From the IMG/VR virus record IMGVR_UViG_3300046004_000803, positions 1 through 27,298 of that record: 27,298 bases of DNA; one strand, given 5' to 3'. Numbering within the stretch: position 1 is the first letter of the stretch; each line of letters opens with the position of its first letter. The notes below the pieces were generated by a model, which did no database searches, was not told the DNA's origin, and was given only the letters and a program-made list of their open reading frames with translations. Shown here in pieces: positions 1,460 through 17,432 of this stretch. Origin of the DNA: a virus. Position numbers and translations under genes: made by a program.

Positions 1460-1519
1460 CCGATTTCCTGTAAGGTGCAAACTCAATCCACCGGCCGCAT
1501 GGTCGAGATGAGAGGCGAG

Positions 1520-2785
1520 ATGAATCCATTTCCCGCGTATAAAACTGTTTCTGTCGGAAAATTGGTGCCTTACGCCAGAAACAGCCGCACACATTCGCCG
1601 CAGCAGGTGGACAAAATCGCCGCCAGCATCCGCGAGTTTGGCTTCCTGAACCCCATCATCGTGGACGGCGAGAACGGCATCATCGCAGGCCACGGGCGCG
1701 TCATGGCAGCCCAAAAGCTTGGCCTGTCTGATCTGCCGGTCATCGAGGCATCGCACCTCACCGAGGCCCAGCGCCGCGCCTACGTCATCGCGGACAACCG
1801 CTTGGCGCTTGACGCCGGGTGGGACAACGATCTGCTGAAGGTCGAACTGCAGGATCTCGACAGCCAAGGCTTTGAACTGACGCTGACGGGGTTTGAGTTG
1901 GGCGAGATCGGCAATCTGCTGGCCGAACCCGCCGAGGGCCTGACCGACGACGACGCGGTGCCGGAAGTGCCTGCCGTCCCGGTGACGGTCGAGGGCGACG
2001 TGTGGCTGCTTGGACGGCATCGGCTGATGTGCGATGACAGCACCAGCATCGATGCGGTGGACAAGCTGATGGCGGGGCGGAAGGCCGACATGGTCTTCAC
2101 TTCGCCGCCCTACAACGCAGACGCAAAAGCCGGGCAGGGCGACATCTTCAACAAGAAGAAAAGCGTTAAACTTTACGCGGATGGATATTCCGACAAGCTG
2201 CCATCGCAAGAGTATGTTGATTTCGCAGCCTCTGTCCTTGAAATATGCTTTGCCGTGACGGACGGCTTTATCTTTTGGAATGTTAGCTACAACGCAAAGT
2301 CGCGGTTCGAATACATTCAGCAAATATCCAACCGGCTTCCGTATCTTGTGGAGCAGGTTTGCTGGAAAAAAAGCAGCACCATACCGTTCAAGGGTTCCTT
2401 GATGCGCGATTGGGAGCCGATTTATGTGTCCTCGACGAACAAGCAGCCCGTTGCAGTGAAAGAGGTCACAAGCAATTTCTGGCAGGTGAGCAACACGGGA
2501 GCGCAGGCTGAAAACCACAAGGCGTGCTTCCCTGTCGAATTGCCGCAGCGGGGCATTGGCATCGTGGCAAAGAATACGGGTGTGGTTTTTGAACCGTTTG
2601 GCGGGTCTGGAACGACTGCCATCGCTTGCGAGAAAACAGACCGCGATTGCTACATGATGGAACTCGACCCGAAATACTGCGACGTCATCATCACCCGCTG
2701 GCAGGACTTCACGGGGCAGACGGCAACGCTTGAGGCGACCGGCCAGACGTTTGCAGAACTCAAGCAGAAGCGCGAGGCCGCATAA
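1520..2785 (+). CDS. ParB-domain DNA methyltransferase (N6-adenine/N4-cytosine, beta-class order)
   Basis: A fusion of a ParB/Srx-type N-terminal domain (about residues 5-105, ending in the typical NRLALDAGW) and an SAM-dependent amino-methyltransferase. The catalytic motif is SPPYN (about 195-199) and the SAM-binding motif FEPFGGSGTT comes later (about 357-366). This order is that of beta-class N6-adenine or N4-cytosine enzymes. Phages use such enzymes to protect their DNA from restriction; here the gene sits immediately upstream of the terminases, with its stop overlapping the terS start (TAATG). I chose ATG 1520, which has AGAGG close upstream; a GTG at 1475 and ATGs at 1499 and 1508 are in frame. 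The part between the two motifs (about 2150-2600) is clearly AT-richer than the rest. Target sequence cannot be read from the protein. Confidence 0.85.
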   Translation: MNPFPAYKTVSVGKLVPYARNSRTHSPQQVDKIAASIREFGFLNPIIVDGENGIIAGHGRVMAAQKLGLSDLPVIEASHLTEAQRRAYVIADNRLALDAGWDNDLLKVELQDLDSQGFELTLTGFELGEIGNLLAEPAEGLTDDDAVPEVPAVPVTVEGDVWLLGRHRLMCDDSTSIDAVDKLMAGRKADMVFTSPPYNADAKAGQGDIFNKKKSVKLYADGYSDKLPSQEYVDFAASVLEICFAVTDGFIFWNVSYNAKSRFEYIQQISNRLPYLVEQVCWKKSSTIPFKGSLMRDWEPIYVSSTNKQPVAVKEVTSNFWQVSNTGAQAENHKACFPVELPQRGIGIVAKNTGVVFEPFGGSGTTAIACEKTDRDCYMMELDPKYCDVIITRWQDFTGQTATLEATGQTFAELKQKREAA

Positions 2786-3150
2786 TGCCGTCAGTCCCAC
2801 CAGATCGCACGCACAACCCGACCGACACGCAGCGCCAGCTTGTGCAACTGCACGCCACCATCGGCACGCAGCAGGCGGTCATCGCCGACATCATCGGCAT
2901 CGACGCCAAGACGCTTCGCAAGCACTACCGCGAAGAACTTGATCAAAGTATGGCCAAGGCAAATGCCCAGATTGGCGGCGCGCTGTTCAACAAAGCCAAA
3001 GGCGGCGACACCACCGCGATGATCTTCTGGATGAAAACCCGCGCGGGTTGGCGTGAGAAGCAGGAAGTTGATGTTACTTCTTCCGACGGCAGCATGACGC
3101 CGCAGGTGGTCGAGCGGATCATCATCCAAGCCAAAGCCGCGGATGGCTAA
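2785..3150 (+). CDS. terS: Terminase small subunit-like DNA-binding protein
   Basis: A 121-residue protein preceding the large terminase and overlapping it by 8 nt. The N-terminal half (residues 15-50) reads as a helix-turn-helix of the kind that recognises packaging sites: QQAVIADIIGIDAKTLRKHY. A conserved-looking segment GGDTTAMIFWMKTRAGWREK (73-92) follows, which is common in small phage proteins placed before terL. It probably binds phage DNA and brings it to the motor subunit. Assignment rests on the HTH, the size and the position; the family is diverse in sequence. The start ATG overlaps the methyltransferase stop. Confidence 0.75.
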   Translation: MPSVPPDRTHNPTDTQRQLVQLHATIGTQQAVIADIIGIDAKTLRKHYREELDQSMAKANAQIGGALFNKAKGGDTTAMIFWMKTRAGWREKQEVDVTSSDGSMTPQVVERIIIQAKAADG

Positions 3151-4444
3151 GAACAGGCTCAGGATCCCGACGGCGGCGTGCTTCATGCCGCTGCTGGAGC
3201 CAGCCCGATACAAGGGCGCGTGGGGCGGCCGTGGAAGTGGCAAGTCCCGTTTCTTCGCCGGATTGCTGGTCGAGGAGCACTTGCGCTTCCCTGGTCATCG
3301 CAGCGTGTGCATCCGCGAAGTGCAGAAGTCCCTGAAGCAGTCGGCCAAGAAGCTGATCGAGGACACGATCCAGACCTACAACCTCGGCGAGGCGCAGGGC
3401 TTCAAGGTGTTTCGCGAGGTCATCGAGACGCCGGGCGACGGGCTGATCATCTTCCAGGGGATGCAGGATCACACGGCCGACAGCGTGAAGTCCCTGGAGG
3501 GCTTCGATCGGGCCTGGGTCGAGGAAGCCCAATCTCTGTCCGACCGTTCGCTGTCGCTCCTGCGGCCCACGATCCGCGCCGAGAAGTCCGAACTTTGGTT
3601 TAGCTGGAACCCGTCCCGGCCGACCGATCCGATCGATCAGCTTCTGCGCGGGCCCATCCTGCCGTCTGGGGCCGCTGTCGTGCGCGCCAACTGGTCTGAC
3701 AACCCGTGGTTCCCCGACGTTCTGGAGGGAGAGCGCAAGGACTGCCTGGGCAACCAGCCGGAGCGGTACGGCCACATCTGGGAGGGCGAGTATGCGACCG
3801 TCCTTGAGGGCGCCTACTACGCCAAGCACCTGACCGAGGCACAGCTTGAACGGCGCATCGGCTTCGTCGCCCGCGATCCGCTGATGAAGGTCTACGCATT
3901 CTGGGACATCGGCGGCACGTCATCCAAGTCCGACGCGACTGCGATATGGGTGGTGCAGTTCGTCGGCTCCGAGGTGCGCGTGCTGAACTACTACGAGGCC
4001 GTGGGGCAGCCCTTCGAGGCCCATGTGAACTGGCTGCGGTCTGAGGGCTACGAGGAGGCGGTCAGCGTCCTGCCGCACGACGGGCGCAAGCACGACCAGG
4101 TCTACGCCGTGACGCCCATGTCGTACCTGCAGGAAGTTGGCTTCGTGGTTGAACTGGTGCGGAACCAGGGCGCGGGCGCGGCATTGCAGCGGATCGATGC
4201 GACCCGCAGGCTGTTCCCCTCGATCAGGTTCAACGAGGTCACGACCAAGGGCGGACGCGATGCGCTGGGCTGGTATCACGAAAAACGTGATGAGGCCCGC
4301 GGCATCGGGCTCGGGCCGGAGCACGACTTTGCGTCGCACGCGGCTGACGCGTTCGGCATGATGGCGGTCTACAAGGCGACCACGATGGCGTCGCAAGACA
4401 CTTGGGACAAGCCCCTGCGCAGAAACCTTAAAGGAGTCCTTTAG
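3143..4444 (+). CDS. terL: Terminase large subunit (PBSX/Terminase_3 type)
   Basis: The packaging motor, 433 residues, the usual length for PBSX-type enzymes. The ATPase half has Walker A GGRGSGKS (28-35) and Walker B-like FDRAWVEEA (121-129, with the catalytic glutamate pair). The nuclease half (RNase H fold) begins near 250 with AFWDIGG, giving the first metal-binding aspartate (D255), and ends with a SHAADAFGMM segment (about 411-420) that supplies a late acidic residue. It cuts concatemeric DNA and drives it into the prohead through the portal at 17429-19534. Complete, with no missing motif. A perfect 15-nt palindrome covers its last codons (4429-4443). Confidence 0.95.
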   Translation: MAKNRLRIPTAACFMPLLEPARYKGAWGGRGSGKSRFFAGLLVEEHLRFPGHRSVCIREVQKSLKQSAKKLIEDTIQTYNLGEAQGFKVFREVIETPGDGLIIFQGMQDHTADSVKSLEGFDRAWVEEAQSLSDRSLSLLRPTIRAEKSELWFSWNPSRPTDPIDQLLRGPILPSGAAVVRANWSDNPWFPDVLEGERKDCLGNQPERYGHIWEGEYATVLEGAYYAKHLTEAQLERRIGFVARDPLMKVYAFWDIGGTSSKSDATAIWVVQFVGSEVRVLNYYEAVGQPFEAHVNWLRSEGYEEAVSVLPHDGRKHDQVYAVTPMSYLQEVGFVVELVRNQGAGAALQRIDATRRLFPSIRFNEVTTKGGRDALGWYHEKRDEARGIGLGPEHDFASHAADAFGMMAVYKATTMASQDTWDKPLRRNLKGVL

Positions 4445-4451
4445 CGCACGC

Positions 4452-4480
4452 TTTTCGTCTGCTTGGCTTTGTGCTAGGGT
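4452..4480 (+). promoter_or_regulatory. Possible weak promoter in the terL-downstream gap
   Basis: The 57-nt gap after terL is one of the few in the rightward operon. It holds TTTTCG (4452-4457), a 17-nt spacer and TAGGGT (4475-4480). The matches are poor, so this is a suggestion only. The next gene has a good ribosome site (AAGGGG, 7 nt before ATG 4502). Confidence 0.2.
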
Positions 4481-4501
4481 AGCGGCAACGAAGGGGCGGC
4501 T

Positions 4502-6013
4502 ATGGGCATTCTTGACTACTTCACGCCGGAAGCGCGACGTGGCAATCGTGAATGGCTGGACAGCCAGAACGCCGCCATTTCCGAAGCCCTACGCTATTAC
4601 CTCGGGCCGACGGGGATCCCGGAGCGGCTTGGCCTGTTGGCCGAAAGCACGCCGACGGCTGGCCTTGAGCGCGCTGGCACTGAGTCATCCCGCATGTTCG
4701 CACCTGGGCTGTCTGGCTGGGACCGCATGGCAGCGGCTGGCAACATGCTCTCAGAGACTGCAGGAGCGGGCGCTGGGCTGCTTGGGATGCCGGCGGCGGG
4801 TAGGATGGCGGACGATCTGGTTGAGGCTGCAGCGCCGGCTGTGAGGCGGTTTGGTGGCGACGAGTTTGGTGGGGTGCCGGTTCCTGGTTCTGTGCGGACC
4901 CAAAAGGTCGGAAACACCACTGTTCAATTCTCGATTGCGGACGACGGAACTGCAGAAATTTACTCGGTTCGCACCCCTAAAGACAAGCGCGGCGGCGGGT
5001 CGGCGCGGTCTGCGATGGAAGCGATCTTGCCGCAACTTCGTGATGAGGGGGCCACTTCCGTGAAGTTGGTTTCATCCCCGCTTGATGCGAAGACAAACCC
5101 GGCGCGGCTCAAGGGTTTCTATGAAAGTCTTGGGTTCCAGGGCACGGGAGAGACTGCGAACATTGCCGGCGACCCGATAATGAGAATGGACTTGCCGCAA
5201 AGAACCGACGCAGCCGCCCAGCAGGGCAGCGAGATCATCAATCTCTTGCGTTCAGGCCGCGCCGGTGAAGTAACCGAGCAAATGCTGGACATGGGCGATC
5301 CGGTGCTGAACGCACGGTTGAGCGAATATCTTTACAGCAATTACGACCTGCCGATGGACGCCGCCAGCCGGATGGGTCGGGCAACAGAAATGGGCGCGAT
5401 AGACGAATACCACGGGACGACAACCGGCGGGGACATGCGATACCCGAGTTCGCGGTACGGCTTCGGATCGCGTGAAAGATCTGGTTTTTTCACGTCTGAT
5501 AGCCCCTACATGGCAAGCACATATGCCGACCCGCTGTACGGGTCAGTGCTTCCCATGATGAACGCCACCCCGCCTAGTGGGCTGTCGCTATTGGATGCGG
5601 GCGGCGAAATTTGGAGCCAAATACCTGGCGACACTATCGTGAGACGCGGCGCAGACGAGTTTCCAGTATCCTCCTACGCGCAGGGAGGGGCCGATGTCGG
5701 CGGCGTATACAGCACCAACCAGATTGCGCGCGGCGCGAACCTTGAGGGGGACGGCGGCGTTCGGTTTGAAAATCTAATTGACCGCGGTATGCACATACCG
5801 CGCCTGCGCGATGACCCATCACTAATGATTGAGTTTCAGTCGCGTGCATCTCAACCGTCTACGGTAACTACGCGCCAAGACACCCGCGGGATGCGTTCCC
5901 GCTTCGCCCGTTTCGACCCGCGCCTGTCCCACTTGCGCGACCTCAATGCGGCGCTGGCCGCCGGCGTCCCGCTCGGCCTTCTCGCCATGCAACCAGGTCA
6001 GGAACCACAATGA
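4502..6013 (+). CDS. Two-domain phage protein: GNAT-like acetyltransferase plus ADP-ribosyltransferase-like domain
   Basis: A 503-residue protein directly behind terL. Residues 130-230 read as a GNAT acetyltransferase: beta strands, an acetyl-CoA-loop-like KRGGGSARSAMEAI (162-175) and the late NPARLKGFYESLGF (199-212). Residues 300-430 resemble an ADP-ribosyltransferase fold: EYHGTTTGG (302-310, H304 as possible NAD-binding residue), GFFTSDSPYMASTYA (328-342) and VRFENLIDRGM (420-430). The N-terminal 115 residues are Ala/Gly-rich and may be a packaging or virion-binding region. The tail (FDPRLSHLRDLNAALAAGVP, 471-490) resembles the closing segment of large phage polyvalent proteins. I infer a protein that is packaged or made late and modifies host targets. 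The domain calls are by motif, without alignment. Its stop overlaps the next start (ATGA). Confidence 0.6.
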   Translation: MGILDYFTPEARRGNREWLDSQNAAISEALRYYLGPTGIPERLGLLAESTPTAGLERAGTESSRMFAPGLSGWDRMAAAGNMLSETAGAGAGLLGMPAAGRMADDLVEAAAPAVRRFGGDEFGGVPVPGSVRTQKVGNTTVQFSIADDGTAEIYSVRTPKDKRGGGSARSAMEAILPQLRDEGATSVKLVSSPLDAKTNPARLKGFYESLGFQGTGETANIAGDPIMRMDLPQRTDAAAQQGSEIINLLRSGRAGEVTEQMLDMGDPVLNARLSEYLYSNYDLPMDAASRMGRATEMGAIDEYHGTTTGGDMRYPSSRYGFGSRERSGFFTSDSPYMASTYADPLYGSVLPMMNATPPSGLSLLDAGGEIWSQIPGDTIVRRGADEFPVSSYAQGGADVGGVYSTNQIARGANLEGDGGVRFENLIDRGMHIPRLRDDPSLMIEFQSRASQPSTVTTRQDTRGMRSRFARFDPRLSHLRDLNAALAAGVPLGLLAMQPGQEPQ

Positions 6014-6168
6014 AGAAGTCCAAAGTCTCCCGCACCATGTCAGAGTTCAAAAAGGGCACGCTGCACGCCGGCATTGACCCGAAGGGGCCGAAGAAGGCGC
6101 CGATCGTCAAGTCGCGCAAGCAGGCGATCGCCATCGCGCTAAGCCAGGCAGGAAAGGCTAAGAAATGA
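6010..6168 (+). CDS. Small basic protein, DUF6496-like
   Basis: A 52-residue lysine-rich protein. It has the pattern of the DUF6496 family of phage mini-proteins: SEFKKGTLHAG (11-21) followed by a proline/lysine linker and VKSRKQAIAIALSQAGKAKK (33-52). The function of the family is unknown. It is joined to the neighbours at both ends by ATGA overlaps. The high positive charge would suit nucleic-acid binding, but nothing here proves it. Confidence 0.75.
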   Translation: MKKSKVSRTMSEFKKGTLHAGIDPKGPKKAPIVKSRKQAIAIALSQAGKAKK

Positions 6169-6257: not shown

Positions 6258-6556
6258 AAACCCCGACCTGGCAGCGGGCGGAAGGCAAGGCCAAGTCCGG
6301 CGGCCTGAACGCCAAGGGGCGGGCGTCCGCCAAGGCCGAGGGCATGAACCTGAAGCCGCCGGTGAAGGCTGGCGACAATCCGCGCCGTGCGTCCTTCCTC
6401 GCACGCATGGGCGGCATGCCGGGGCCGGAGAAAGACGAAAAGGGCGAACCCACGCGCCTGCTGAAATCTCTGCAGGCGTGGGGCGCGTCCAGCAAGCCCG
6501 ACGCGAAGGCTAAAGCCAAGGCCATTTCGGCCCGCAATGAGGCGAAGAAGAAATGA
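6254..6556 (+). CDS. Small basic protein, DUF6321-like
   Basis: A 100-residue basic protein starting with GTG at 6254, inside the stop codon of the previous gene. Its central part, LKPPVKAGDNPRRASFLARM (residues 33-52), followed by GGMPGPEKDEKGEPTRLL and LQAWGASSKPDAKAKAKAIS, is characteristic of the DUF6321 family found in phages. Function unknown. A longer frame using an ATG at 6188 exists but would read through the cysteine mini-protein in another phase, so the GTG is preferred. The stop overlaps the adaptor gene start. Confidence 0.75.
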   Translation: MKTPTWQRAEGKAKSGGLNAKGRASAKAEGMNLKPPVKAGDNPRRASFLARMGGMPGPEKDEKGEPTRLLKSLQAWGASSKPDAKAKAKAISARNEAKKK

Positions 6557-7164
6557 GCATCACCAACTTCGGCACGCTGAAGACGGCCATCGCGGACACG
6601 CTTAACAGGCAGGATCTAACCTCGGTCATCCCCACGTTCGTCTCGCTGGCCCAAGCGCAATTCAACCGCAAGATCCGCTCGCACCGCCAGATCACGCGGG
6701 GCAGCCTAACGATCGACGCGCAGTTCGAGGCCTTGCCGGCCGACTGGCTGGAAACGATCCGCATCACGATGGACGCCAACCCGATCCGGGTGCTGACGCA
6801 GATCAGCATGGACGACCTGACGCGGTATCGCACAGCCATCGACAACACGACGGACGCGCCCGTTTACTTCGCCCACAACGGGACCGACATCGAGTTGTTC
6901 CCGACGCCCAGCACGTCCTTTACGGGTGAGATTACCTATTACGCCAAGATCACGGCACTGTCGGCGGACGCAGACACCAACTGGCTGTTGACCAATAACC
7001 CGGATGTTTATCTTTATGGATCTTTAGTGCATACTGCACCGTACCTTAAGGATGATGCGCGCATTGCTCTGTGGGCCGGTCTGCTGGCCCAGGCGATGGA
7101 CGAAATCGAAGATGAAACCGCCGCGGCCCGGTTTGGTTCCCCGTTGCGTATGAGGATGCGATAA
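6553..7164 (+). CDS. Head-tail adaptor protein (SU10-type)
   Basis: A 203-residue structural protein expected to form a ring under the portal and to connect head and tail. The sequence begins with [18 protein letters not shown], followed by a [15 protein letters not shown] helix, then a [10 protein letters not shown] segment and a beta-rich middle with ELFPTP and ITYYAKI. The C-terminal helix is [13 protein letters not shown]. This order is typical of the phage adaptor family that includes the SU10 adaptor. It agrees with the SU10-like capsid gene later in the window. ATGA and TAATG overlaps on either side show it is part of one transcript. Confidence 0.8.
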
Positions 7165-12782: not shown

Positions 12783-13421
12783 ATGGCAGGCGCAGCACGA
12801 CCACAGCAAGTCCAGCCGCAGCCCATGGGCGCGGGCCAGCAGAACGTTTACCAGCAGGCCGCCGGGCAGTATAATGCCGCCGTAGCCGGCCCGAACATCG
12901 GTCAGTTCATGAACCCCTATACGTCCGAAGTGATCGGGCGCACCGGCATGGACATGGCCCGGCAGGCTCAAATGGCGCAGAACACGCTAGGTGCCGAGGC
13001 AACGCGGGCCGGCGCCTTTGGCGGATCTCGGCAGGGTGTAGCCCAAGGCACGATGCTGGGCGACTACGGGCGCGCGTTCGGCGACATTGCGGCGCAGCAG
13101 CGGCAGCAGGGCTTCAACACCGCACTGAGCGCGGCGCAGGCGCAGCAGGGCATCCAGTCTGGACTGGCGGGTCAGGGCTTTGGCTTCGGCCAGCAGATCG
13201 GGGCAACGCAGGCGCAAGAGGGCCAACGCCAGCAGGGCATGAACCAAGCGCTGATCGACGCGGCCAAGGGTCAATTTGGCGGGTTTACCGGCGCGCCGCA
13301 GGATGCTCTCAGCACGTATCTGGCGGCGTTGGGCGGTTCGCAAACTGGTCAGCAGACACAGACATCGACGCAGAAGCCCGGGCTGCTGCAGTATCTGTCG
13401 CTTGGGCTTGGGTTGCTCTGA
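12783..13421 (+). CDS. Internal virion / DNA ejection protein, Gln-Gly-rich
   Basis: A 212-residue protein rich in Gln, Ala and Gly. The core contains IGQFMNPYTSEVIGRTG (39-55) and TRAGAFGGSRQGVAQ (74-88), a signature of phage internal virion proteins that form helical ejection complexes (T7 gp14-like role). The C-terminus (LLQYLSLGLGLL) is hydrophobic and could insert in a membrane. Its stop overlaps the start of the lysozyme-like gene (TGATG). Ribosome site GGAG about 8 nt before ATG. Confidence 0.65.
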   Translation: MAGAARPQQVQPQPMGAGQQNVYQQAAGQYNAAVAGPNIGQFMNPYTSEVIGRTGMDMARQAQMAQNTLGAEATRAGAFGGSRQGVAQGTMLGDYGRAFGDIAAQQRQQGFNTALSAAQAQQGIQSGLAGQGFGFGQQIGATQAQEGQRQQGMNQALIDAAKGQFGGFTGAPQDALSTYLAALGGSQTGQQTQTSTQKPGLLQYLSLGLGLL

Positions 13422-14068
13422 TGGCCATCACGATTGACGAACTGAGGCGCAATGTCTTCCCCGGCGAAAGCGGCGGGGACTACAACGCATTATTCGGATA
13501 CGCCAATCGCCCGGGCGGCCAGTTCGCCAATACTCAACTGACCAACATGACCGTCGATCAGGCCCTGCAGTTTGCAAACCCGAGCGGGGAATATGGTCAA
13601 AGCGTCAAGGGCCAGATCGGCCGAGTGGCCACGCCGATGGGCGCATATCAGGTTGTCGGGGCGACCCTGCGGGGCGCCAAGGAGGGCCTTGGGCTCACTG
13701 GCAACGAAGTCATGACGCCCGAACTGCAAGACGCCATCGGGATGTGGATTTATCAGAACCAAGGCCCGGGCGCGTGGGAAGCATGGGGCAAGGGCGGATC
13801 ATCCCCACAGCCAACCGCAAGCACCCCGTTCGGTCCCGGCACGCCCGCACCTATGGCGACGGCAGCCCAGTTCATGCCCACGCAACCCACTGACCCGTTC
13901 GAGGGCATGGGCCTGCTGTCGCGCCTTGCCGCCAGCCGTGGCATCGCGCAGGAAGCCGGTGGCGCGCCGCTGGCGAACCTTCTTAACATCATCACGCAAA
14001 AGAAAGACCCCCAGCTTGCCGATCTGGCAAAGCAGCGCGGCGGGTTTTTCGGTCTTTTGGGGGCGTAA
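13421..14068 (+). CDS. Virion-associated lysozyme/transglycosylase-like protein
   Basis: A 215-residue protein whose first 125 residues resemble a lysozyme-like fold: the catalytic glutamate candidate E16 in FPGESGGDYNALFGY (13-27), LTNMTVDQALQFA (40-52), then GRVATPMGAYQVVGATL (67-83) and MWIYQNQGPGAWEAWG near 108-123. Such enzymes are carried in podovirus particles and open the peptidoglycan locally during DNA entry. It is separate from the lysis amidase at 8661. The remaining 90 residues are Pro/Thr-rich linker and a helical tail, perhaps for docking to the internal proteins on either side. Confidence 0.7.
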   Translation: MAITIDELRRNVFPGESGGDYNALFGYANRPGGQFANTQLTNMTVDQALQFANPSGEYGQSVKGQIGRVATPMGAYQVVGATLRGAKEGLGLTGNEVMTPELQDAIGMWIYQNQGPGAWEAWGKGGSSPQPTASTPFGPGTPAPMATAAQFMPTQPTDPFEGMGLLSRLAASRGIAQEAGGAPLANLLNIITQKKDPQLADLAKQRGGFFGLLGA

Positions 14069-15223
14069 ATGGCAATTAATATGGAGGAACTCCTGCGAGC
14101 CTTCGGTCGGCCCAACGTGGTCGAGGTTGGTTCCGTTCCGCAGCCGCCAGCCACCCTGCCACAGCCCACCAGAGCGCCCGTGACGGCCCAAGCACCCATG
14201 CAAGCACCGCAGGCAGCCCAGCGGCCCCGTGGCCTTCTTGGTGGCTTCTTTGGCCCCGAGGGGCGCGACGCGAGATCACGCCTTGCCATCGGTCTTGAAG
14301 GCTTGGCGATGAACCCGAACCAGGCGCTGATTGGGCAGTTGCAGCAAGGCATCCAAAGCCGCGAGACGGCCGCACAAAGAAACGCCACGATTGAGTGGCT
14401 TTTGTCGCGTGGGCGGGATGACTTGGCTGCGGCTCTGGAAGCTGGAGCATCCCCGCAAGACGTGCTGGCCGAGGCCATGCGCCCCGCGGCGGCAGCCGAA
14501 CGCGGCGTTGTGGTCGGCGGCAACGTCGTTGACCCAATCACTGGCGAAATCATCTACCAGGGCGAAGGCAAGGAACCGTCCCCGCAAACAGCCATTGCTA
14601 AGCTGGAGGCCGACCGGCGCTCCGGTCTGATCAATGAAGAGCAATATAAGGCTGGCCTGCAGGCTCTCGCCCCAACCGGAACGAGCGTTACGGTGGGCCC
14701 TGACGGGCAAGTGCAATTCACACAAGGCGTCGGCGTCGGCGGAACTGGTGCGCCTACGGTTGGGCAGGTCTACAACCCAAACGAAATTCAAAGCGTTATC
14801 GGGATGATTGACCAAATCGCAACGGACCCTAACCTTCCGAGCGTTGTGGGGCAAAAAGCTGTAATCTTGGGCGGCGGAAACAAGATTTCCGACATGAACA
14901 TGACCCAACGACTTGCATACGGCCAAGAAGGTCTTGGTCTTATTGAGCGGATTGGACAACTTCAGAGCAACGCATGGCTGTCCGCCCGTCAAATGCTGAA
15001 GGGCGGCGGAGCAATCACCGATTACGAAAGCCAAAAAGCCGAAGCCGCAGTCGCTCGCCTTGAACGCCCGAAAAGCGAAGGAGAGTTCAAGCAGGCCCTC
15101 AAAGACCTGCGCGACGCCATTGTTGAGGGCGAAGCAAAGTTGCGCGCACAGCAAGGCGGTGCGCTTGCTCCTGCTGGCGGCATGCCGTCGGACGACGCTC
15201 TTCTGAACATGTACGGGGGCTGA
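14069..15223 (+). CDS. Internal virion protein
   Basis: A 384-residue protein with a Pro/Ala/Gln-rich N-terminal linker (about 20-55), a helical segment GLEGLAMNPNQALIGQLQQG (75-94) and a C-terminal region with IERIGQLQSNAWLSARQMLK, GGGAITDYESQKAEAAVARL and SEGEFKQALKDLRDAIVEGE. The last region is widespread in phage structural proteins with ejection or tape-like roles. No catalytic motif. It lies between the lysozyme-like protein and the large ejection protein, so it is likely one of three or four proteins forming the DNA-delivery channel. Confidence 0.6.
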   Translation: MAINMEELLRAFGRPNVVEVGSVPQPPATLPQPTRAPVTAQAPMQAPQAAQRPRGLLGGFFGPEGRDARSRLAIGLEGLAMNPNQALIGQLQQGIQSRETAAQRNATIEWLLSRGRDDLAAALEAGASPQDVLAEAMRPAAAAERGVVVGGNVVDPITGEIIYQGEGKEPSPQTAIAKLEADRRSGLINEEQYKAGLQALAPTGTSVTVGPDGQVQFTQGVGVGGTGAPTVGQVYNPNEIQSVIGMIDQIATDPNLPSVVGQKAVILGGGNKISDMNMTQRLAYGQEGLGLIERIGQLQSNAWLSARQMLKGGGAITDYESQKAEAAVARLERPKSEGEFKQALKDLRDAIVEGEAKLRAQQGGALAPAGGMPSDDALLNMYGG

Positions 15224-15224
15224 A

Positions 15225-17432
15225 ATGGCTGAATACGACCAGATCATGCAGGCCCTGCGAAATGCTCACGCGGCCGGTGATACGGCTGCGGCCCAGCGCC
15301 TGGCGCAAATGGCAAAAGCCGCGAAGCCATCTGAAAATGTCGTTATGAATACCAAAGACGGCGGGCGCGTTGTTCGCAGCCAATCCGGCGCGCTGTCTTT
15401 CGTTTCTCCGGCATATTCCACGTCTGACCCAGAGCAGATCAAGCGCATCATGGAAGGCGCGGGCGGGGCTGAAGTCTCGCGCGGCGGCATGCAAGAAAGC
15501 ATCATCGCGCAAGCGCCAGTTTCTTCTAGGCTGACAAAGCTAGTCGAGGGAACGCCTGCCGTTGGGTCATATCTTGATGAATTGATTGGCGCGTTCGCTG
15601 GGCCGGAAGCAACGCAGGGCGTCCGCGCGCTTTCATCGGCGATGGAGGAAACCCGGCCAGGCCAGTCGCTCGGGTTGAACCTCGGCGGCGCGGCACTGGG
15701 CACGGCGGCAACGCTTGCCGCAACGCCGGCCCGCATCGCCACCGCATTGGTCCCCTCAACGTCCGCCCGCATGCTGCCGAGCATCGGCAAGGCCGCGCTA
15801 ACCTCTGGCCTTCTTGGCGCAACCGAGGGGGCAATCTACGGTGCGGGCCAAGGCGAGGGCGCTGGGCGTGCAGAGACTGCCGGGACGGGTGCCTTGTTCG
15901 GCGGTCTTCTTGGTGGCGCGCTTGGTGGCGCTGCGCCGCTTGTTGCCGCCGGTGCAGAAAATGTCGCGGGCATCTTCCGGCGCAGCGACGTAGCAAAGAT
16001 TGCGGTTGACCTCGGCATCTCTCGCGAGGCGGCAACTGTCATCAAAAACACCTTCGACCAAGGCGGCGACATTGCCGCTGCGCGTGCAGCGATTCAGCGC
16101 GCCGGATCTGAGGGCATGCTGGCCGACGCAGGTTTTGCGGCGCAGGCCCTGCTCGATGCTTCCGCAGCCACTGGCGGTCGGGCTGGGCAGGTTGCACGGG
16201 AAGCCGTTGAGGGGCGCATGACCCGCACGGGCGAGGCGCTGGACGCTACGCTGGACGCGACACTTGGAACTGCTCCGCTTGGACCCCGCACGGCGGTTAA
16301 CGCCATTGCAGAGCGCACAGCGCCAGCCCGGGCCGAGGCATACGGATTAGCCTATCAGACCCCGATCAACTATGCCGCGCCGCAAGGTCGCAAGATCGAG
16401 GAAGTGCTAGGGCGGGTTGCGCCAGATGACTTGATCGCAGGCATCGTCGAGGCAAACAAGGAAATGCGTTCGCGTGGCATGGTCAATCAGCAGATTATGG
16501 CTGTGCTCGACGCCAACGGAAACGTGGAGTTTTTGCGCGAAATGCCGAACGTCCAGCAGTTGGACGAAGTCAAAAAGGCATTGCAGAAAATCGCATACGA
16601 CAACACCGATGATTTCGGCCGCCTGACCGGGACGGGCCAACGTTATTCGCGCCTTGCAGGTGAGTTGCGCGATGCCGTCGGGGACGCCGTGCCAGACTAT
16701 CGCACCGCTGTCTCGATCGGCGGTGACAAGCTGGCCGAAGAGCGGGCATTTATGCTGGGCCGCGATCTCCTTTCCGCCAGAACGGAAATTGAAGATATCG
16801 GTTTTGAACTTGGCAAGAACCCGTCTGCGGCTCAGGTCGAGGCTGCGAAGTCTGGCCTGCGGTCTCAAATCGCAAAGGTTCTGGGCGACGTTCGCGCCGT
16901 GCCTTCGGATATGAACCTTGACGCCCGCGAAGTGGTCAAGGCCGTCACGGACATGAGCAGCAGCAACGCCAGGGCCAAGATCCGCGCGCTGATGGGCGCC
17001 GAGGCCGACGCACTTTTGAAGCAAGTTGACGAAGCCGCACAGAGCGCAGTCGTGCGGACGGCTATGGCGACGAACTCCAAGACGGCCATTCGGGGTAGCA
17101 TCAAGCAGACCGTGCAAGAAATGACGACCCCCGGCGTCTTGGGCCAAGCGATGGCCGGCGAGCCCATCAACTCGTCAAAGGCCCTGATCCAGGCCATCAC
17201 TGGTCAGACCGAGGAATTTACTGCACAACAGCGGCAGCGTATCTTTGAGGATATCGCCAAGGCTTTGACGGAAAAGCGCGGGAACACGGCACTGGCGGCG
17301 CTTGATTACCTGGAGCAGGCAATGCGTGGTCAGCCGTTGACTGCGGCGCAAAATGAATTCCTTGCGCGCCAAATCGCGGGGACCACGATAATCGCTGGCG
17401 TGCCGGCGGCTCAAGAGGTGACTGGAAGATGA
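15225..17432 (+). CDS. Large internal virion / ejection protein with glycine-rich membrane-like segments
   Basis: A 735-residue protein. Residues 150-255 hold glycine/alanine-rich hydrophobic stretches (LGLNLGGAALGTAATLAATP and AGTGALFGGLLGGALGGAAP), which could insert in the host membrane when the protein is ejected. The rest is mostly helical with long Ala/Glu/Lys-rich regions. No lysozyme motif is seen, which fits the separate enzyme at 13421. Size, position before the portal and composition all point to the main ejection (pilot) protein, comparable in role to T7 gp15/gp16 or P22 gp16/gp20. Ends in a 4-nt overlap with the portal gene. Confidence 0.6.
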   Translation: MAEYDQIMQALRNAHAAGDTAAAQRLAQMAKAAKPSENVVMNTKDGGRVVRSQSGALSFVSPAYSTSDPEQIKRIMEGAGGAEVSRGGMQESIIAQAPVSSRLTKLVEGTPAVGSYLDELIGAFAGPEATQGVRALSSAMEETRPGQSLGLNLGGAALGTAATLAATPARIATALVPSTSARMLPSIGKAALTSGLLGATEGAIYGAGQGEGAGRAETAGTGALFGGLLGGALGGAAPLVAAGAENVAGIFRRSDVAKIAVDLGISREAATVIKNTFDQGGDIAAARAAIQRAGSEGMLADAGFAAQALLDASAATGGRAGQVAREAVEGRMTRTGEALDATLDATLGTAPLGPRTAVNAIAERTAPARAEAYGLAYQTPINYAAPQGRKIEEVLGRVAPDDLIAGIVEANKEMRSRGMVNQQIMAVLDANGNVEFLREMPNVQQLDEVKKALQKIAYDNTDDFGRLTGTGQRYSRLAGELRDAVGDAVPDYRTAVSIGGDKLAEERAFMLGRDLLSARTEIEDIGFELGKNPSAAQVEAAKSGLRSQIAKVLGDVRAVPSDMNLDAREVVKAVTDMSSSNARAKIRALMGAEADALLKQVDEAAQSAVVRTAMATNSKTAIRGSIKQTVQEMTTPGVLGQAMAGEPINSSKALIQAITGQTEEFTAQQRQRIFEDIAKALTEKRGNTALAALDYLEQAMRGQPLTAAQNEFLARQIAGTTIIAGVPAAQEVTGR

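Follow-up and report, generated by a model that had tools for sequence, protein, structure and literature searches.

The DNA examined here, called the window throughout, is the 27,298-nucleotide (nt) virus record IMGVR_UViG_3300046004_000803 of IMG/VR. On its plus strand, at 4502-6013, lies a gene for a protein of 503 residues that carries a GNAT acetyltransferase domain and, behind it, an ADP-ribosyltransferase (ART) domain. With moderate confidence we regard this protein as a polyvalent effector that is delivered by the virion, combines GNAT acetyltransferase with H-Y-D ADP-ribosyltransferase and modifies host proteins. Computation supports both domain assignments, and likewise that the predicted active sites are conserved, that the gene lies among virion genes and that partner domains are exchanged. 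The coding sequence, taken from a list of open reading frames (ORFs) and their translations, starts with ATG after a gap of 57 nt from the terL stop at 4444, and it has homologues at the loci designated L002 (70% identical in the C-terminal half), L012 and L162. Over 267 codons the window and L002, the closest homologue, differ at 60, 34 and 147 of the first, second and third positions respectively; because these differences are concentrated at position 3, the ORF is taken to be a protein-coding gene under constraint.

Searched on its own, the protein gave sub-threshold Pfam matches to Acetyltransf_1 (E = 0.007) and ART-PolyVal (E = 0.11), a match to PHROG 1249, an acetyltransferase family (E 9e-4), and no match in a sequence search of the PDB. 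A tblastn search of phage records returned four records with the whole protein and one with the ART half, so that the relatives come mostly from metagenomic contigs. These are for the most part fragments, many of them without a visible terL or adaptor gene, and the survey of loci is a sample limited to 80 loci per search. The GNAT homologues and their family, an ART family of 92 ORFs (residues 233-503, among the loci fetched) and the codon differences described above place the GNAT and ART matches beyond chance.

The GNAT assignment of residues 136-230 (4907-5191, plus strand) is firm and is based on homologue profiles together with an AlphaFold2 model. An earlier note, made from the letters of this DNA, had proposed that one protein joins the GNAT and ART folds, and the motifs that it quoted are present at residues 162-175, 199-212, 303-307 and 328-342. 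The structure prediction and fold search that it had suggested gave, for the GNAT region, a model with a mean pLDDT of 87.5 and a best Foldseek match in the PDB at E 8e-7. There were 213 such matches at E≤0.001, and those listed are acetyltransferases, including RimI, GCN5 and AcrVA5 (6iuf, TMt 0.86). Residues 135-228 also match stand-alone proteins of the Pseudomonas phages Lu11 (43%) and HRDY3 (35%), and with a profile built from these matches the domain is detected in numerous viral contigs, some of the ORFs exceeding 2000 residues. In the alignment of 31 sequences, the predicted acetyl-CoA loop R163-G-G-G-S-A168 (4988-5005, plus strand; motif R-G-x-G-x-A/G), which agrees with the R/Q-x-x-G-x-G/A motif of the GNAT superfamily, retains R163 in 27, G166 in all 31 and A or G at position 168 in 30. 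Within a second motif, F206-Y207-ESL-G211-F212 (5117-5137, plus strand), F206, Y207, G211 and F212 are each invariant (31/31). Separately, we observed the same GNAT family embedded in very large ORFs (2212-2886 residues) of the viral contigs L086, L089, L090, L091 and L103.

The ART domain, residues 298-475 (5393-5926, plus strand), is assigned on strong, though less firm, grounds from homologue profiles and an AlphaFold2 model (pLDDT 89.0, pTM 0.84). Its model shows an ART-like fold and that of the other domain a GNAT-like one, as the earlier note had proposed. Against the viral structure library BFVD this model gave 19 matches at E≤0.001, several of which are named PolyVal ADP-ribosyltransferase or ART-PolyVal-like. 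At the level of sequence, 20 of 61 full-length members of the ART family match ART-PolyVal at E≤1e-3, the best at 2e-34, and against PF18760 the window protein scores 13.7 bits and the L025 protein 50.2 bits, compared with a gathering cut-off of 31.2 bits. The domain is preceded by a helical lead-in, residues 233-297 (5198-5392, plus strand), which is helical in the model and bears the signature LPMDxASRMxRA; M285 and R290 of this signature are each kept in 56 of 57 sequences.

In the ARTs of polyvalent proteins the active site has been described as H in strand 1, Y in strand 2 and D in strand 5 (PMC5512222). The earlier note had pointed to H304 and to the region of Y336 and Y341 as the residues that close relatives ought to keep. 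H304 (5411-5413, plus strand), a predicted NAD-site histidine in the first strand (model residues 68-73), is conserved in 48 of 57 sequences, and the adjacent G305 in 53. Y341 (5522-5524, plus strand), the predicted NAD-site tyrosine, comes just after strand 2 and a short helix; 55 of 57 sequences keep it, and the remaining two have Phe. This part of the proposal stood, while Y336 did not: it is kept in only 6 of 57 sequences, and a catalytic role for it was ruled out. A predicted third catalytic position in the domain had been overlooked. We place it at D427 (5780-5782, plus strand), immediately behind the strand formed by model residues 187-194; it is kept in 39 of 41 sequences of a tighter alignment (A5) and in 44 of 48 ungapped sequences of another (A4). 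The order H304-Y341-D427 fits the H-Y-D pattern, the strands being numbered by their order in the model and not by superposition. D427 is thus predicted to complete the triad described for phage polyvalent-protein ARTs, and, judged by these residues, the window ART is of the H-Y-D type and belongs to the Tox-ART-HYD2 clade. The conserved H-Y-D residues also rule out close kinship with T4 Alt and ModA, the ART effectors named in the earlier note, since the R-S-E active site of the T4 Alt family is not found in the window ART.

The pairing of the two domains recurs, with the same GNAT family and an ART homologue in one ORF in five other viral contigs (L133, L153, L162, L171 and L182). It had been put forward as new; however, Iyer et al. 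in 2017 reported that one GNAT family of polyvalent proteins typically has an ART domain as its neighbor, and placed both GNAT families of such proteins within the RimI-like clade (PMC5512222). The pairing is therefore already described, and the window protein is a well-supported addition to a known class. By its published description, the GNAT-ART protein BAR32501.1 of an uncultured Mediterranean phage is alike in carrying GNAT and an H-Y-D ART in one polypeptide. The models and profiles show at least two unrelated biochemical domains in the window protein, and the gene lies in a portal-terminase and virion gene context, a setting that it shares with the polyvalent proteins of Iyer et al., for which packaging and injection were predicted (PMC5512222). 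What the present analysis adds is D427, the survey of the slot behind terL, the evidence for exchange of partners and the conserved tail described below.

That the N-terminal partner of the ART unit is exchanged among relatives is supported by computation on their sequences. The L002 protein, so similar in its C-terminal half, is without GNAT, and among the 61 ART homologues Pfam identifies Peptidase M15, CHAP, LPD23, DUF7178 and ASCH as other partners. In the window protein the GNAT domain is preceded by an Ala/Gly-rich head, residues 1-125 (4502-4876, plus strand), with comparable heads in homologues. It resembles the head of the L012 protein (phmmer E 2.8e-6) and the aligned N-terminal half of the L162 protein (30% across open-frame residues 10-232), and more weakly that of L002 (27%, E 4e-4). 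Some further arrangements were seen in these loci. A second, different GNAT-like stretch (MDVVGYSM...VxxMQGxGIGGELQYL) was recognized by eye before the ART unit in L162 (about residues 310-450) and L028 (about residues 205-345); the window GNAT profile gives no strong match to that of L028. In the slot region of L018 (5965-7107) there is an LPD23 polyvalent-associated protein (55.4 bits) with a HEGQH zincin-like motif identified by eye. Elsewhere the slot holds two genes, one for an unknown protein and then one for a stand-alone ART (L022:7327-9395, L025:4548-6532, L026:1771-3848 and L029:3738-5899), and in L022, L025 and L026 both slot proteins end in similar tails of the FMAPT/FLAPQ...MxxYxxxxxR type.

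The slot itself is bounded, as the earlier note had it, by virion genes. Upstream lies terL (3143-4444, plus strand; Terminase_3 E 3e-23, PHROG 3717 E 6e-45), and downstream, at 6553-7164 on the same strand, a gene that we call the adaptor, which matches the virion structural protein family PHROG 2941 at E 5.5e-54. This neighborhood is family-wide. In a set of 80 ART ORFs whose loci were collected independently of terL, terL can be seen in 26 cases and lies within 2 kb upstream in 21 of them; the adaptor can be seen in 51 and lies within 1 kb downstream in 37. A second location of the ART unit, directly behind the portal gene, occurs in L166, L170, L180 and L201 (Rhodobacterales metagenome-assembled genome, MAG). 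Between terL and the slot is a promoter-like 18-base motif, TGTGMTAGGGTRNCGGCA (4470-4487, plus strand), conserved in relatives, with exact copies in the window, L006-L011 and L017. It is the sole match in the window at up to three mismatches, with 0.12 expected by chance, and the GNAT-ART cassette begins just downstream of it. The effector stop overlaps the start of a small gene for 52 residues (6010-6168, plus strand; ATGA), whose 3' part is common to the relatives with an empty slot, the DNA similarity resuming near 6105. The survey of the slot in relatives, which had been proposed as a check, found ART units, HNH ORFs or no cassette behind terL. HNH-type ORFs, identified by eye, take the place of the cassette in L008 and L009; the HNH gene of L008 is situated after terL and ahead of the promoter-like motif. 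We noted such ORFs in or beside the terL-adaptor slot at L008:2974-3654, L009:7401-8066 and L002:3660-4295, with or without an ART gene. Homing endonucleases might drive the turnover of cassettes in this slot.

In the role that we favor, the late virion operon would supply the effector, which would enter the particle along with the DNA and be ejected into the host; there its GNAT and ART domains would modify proteins using acetyl-CoA and NAD+. Candidate targets would be components of host defence, the RNA polymerase or translation factors, and the two-activity protein would probably serve to disarm the bacterium, or to reprogram it, as infection begins. The packaging step is suggested by the position of the gene and by the arguments made for polyvalent proteins and ARTs of this type (PMC5512222, PMC9503650); ARTs adjoining terminase genes have been described (PMC9503650). 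Ejected proteins do belong to this virion plan: one window gene (12783-13421, PHROG 4287) is predicted to specify a DNA-ejection protein, and another (14069-15223) belongs to PHROG 2534, whose annotation reads "released from the phage upon host infection". Together with a 735-residue Ala/Gly-rich protein (PHROG 5880), these genes form a likely ejection or internal virion cluster at 12783-17432.

Several observations weigh against this reading. The PDB matches of the ART model are statistically weak, with E≥0.02 (best E 0.02), although the top four chains, two of MbcT and one each of AcrIF11 and KptA, are ART-superfamily structures. About 16% of the relatives are without H304, including L012, which is 47% identical in the ART half, so that some family members may be inactive or use different chemistry. 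Finally, the gene is accessory, since no cassette is present in L006, L007, L010, L011 and L017, relatives whose TerL is 87-88% identical to that of the window.

A location in a late operon behind a promoter-like motif would also suit an enzymatic effector that is not packaged but is made late in the cell, to act there on proteins of the host or the phage or to exclude competing phages, and an alternative proposed in the literature is that ARTs of this sort could work against immunity directed at components of packaging (PMC9503650). We hold this to be possible but less likely than delivery, because the gene lies in head clusters across diverse phages and exchanges domains in the modular way of other predicted polyvalent proteins. 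Less likely still is that the ART fold is a non-catalytic module for adaptor, virion-loading or binding functions and that the variable N-terminal partner alone acts. The C-terminal signature RSxFARFDP, with A469, D472 and P473 each kept in 57 of 57 sequences, is indeed better conserved than H304, which is substituted in L012, L023, L117, L138, L148, L156 and L159/L161/L163. However, loss of function would erode H304, Y341 and D427 together, whereas almost no variation is seen at Y341 and D427, and the window and 84% of relatives retain H304. Although its Ala/Gly-rich head and its place between virion genes would suit an accessory virion protein of purely structural function whose folds are vestigial, this is very improbable given the close relatives that lack the gene and the conserved GNAT and ART active-site residues.

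A candidate signal for virion loading, or for membrane contact, is the hydrophobic tail, residues 476-503 (5927-6010, plus strand), delimited from alignment, model and hydrophobicity. The tail holds the most hydrophobic 19-mer of the protein, and L478, L481, A483 and G492 are conserved at ≥90% in 41 sequences; its end, residues 484-503, is poorly modelled (pLDDT<50). Its likeness to the tails of phage polyvalent proteins, pointed out in the earlier note, is supported. The conserved tail might be a virion-loading signal. A wider proposal, that a broad podovirus group uses the gap behind terL as its standard cargo bay, with interchangeable fronts, a shared ART unit and the tail as a signal for loading and ejection, seems to us doubtful.

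In Octadecabacter Antarctic DB virus 2 (MW805364), gp6 is homologous to the window protein in its ART half and C-terminal tail and sits between terL and a "tail tubular protein" gene, as in the slot of the window, but its N-terminal half is unlike and the GNAT profile gives no match to it; the text of the paper on this virus does not mention mass spectrometry or proteomics (PMC9239159). In Sulfitobacter phage phiGT1, phiGT1_5 is an ART-PolyVal-like head-cluster gene that scores 30.0 bits with PF18760 (cut-off 31.2), and its record lists BAR32501 as the closest phage homologue; it differs in lying between portal and scaffold genes, and GNAT was not detected in it. Mass spectrometry is reported in the phiGT1 paper (PMC10386132). 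T4 Alt is likewise a phage ART encoded with late genes, and PMC5512222 cites its packaging, its injection and its modification of the host RNA polymerase, but it belongs to the R-S-E clade and is without GNAT. The window ART fold resembles, by a weak match (E 0.31), the anti-CRISPR AcrIF11 (6kyf), which also relies on His, Tyr and Asp/Glu residues (PMC12421852), and the GNAT fold resembles the anti-CRISPR AcrVA5 (6iuf). These, however, are separate stand-alone proteins, and their CRISPR targeting is not implied for the window protein.

An alphaproteobacterial host is suggested for the window phage by the cultured phages nearest to it in terL, several of which infect alphaproteobacteria, and by a genome-collection scan in which the ART half found one homologue, in a Rhodobacterales MAG. 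Elsewhere in the window (1475-2785), upstream of terS, a ParB N-terminal domain is fused to an N6/N4 DNA methylase.

As a whole, the window protein, a compact effector predicted to be injected and to have two activities, offers a tractable example from an environmental short-tailed phage, with its probable catalytic residues named, and the slot behind terL provides a natural series of domain swaps that includes relatives without cargo. Should packaging be demonstrated, the loading of effector proteins by podoviruses could be understood from the conserved tail, and were the slot a cargo bay of the kind outlined above, a modular system of protein injection would be defined by this tail.
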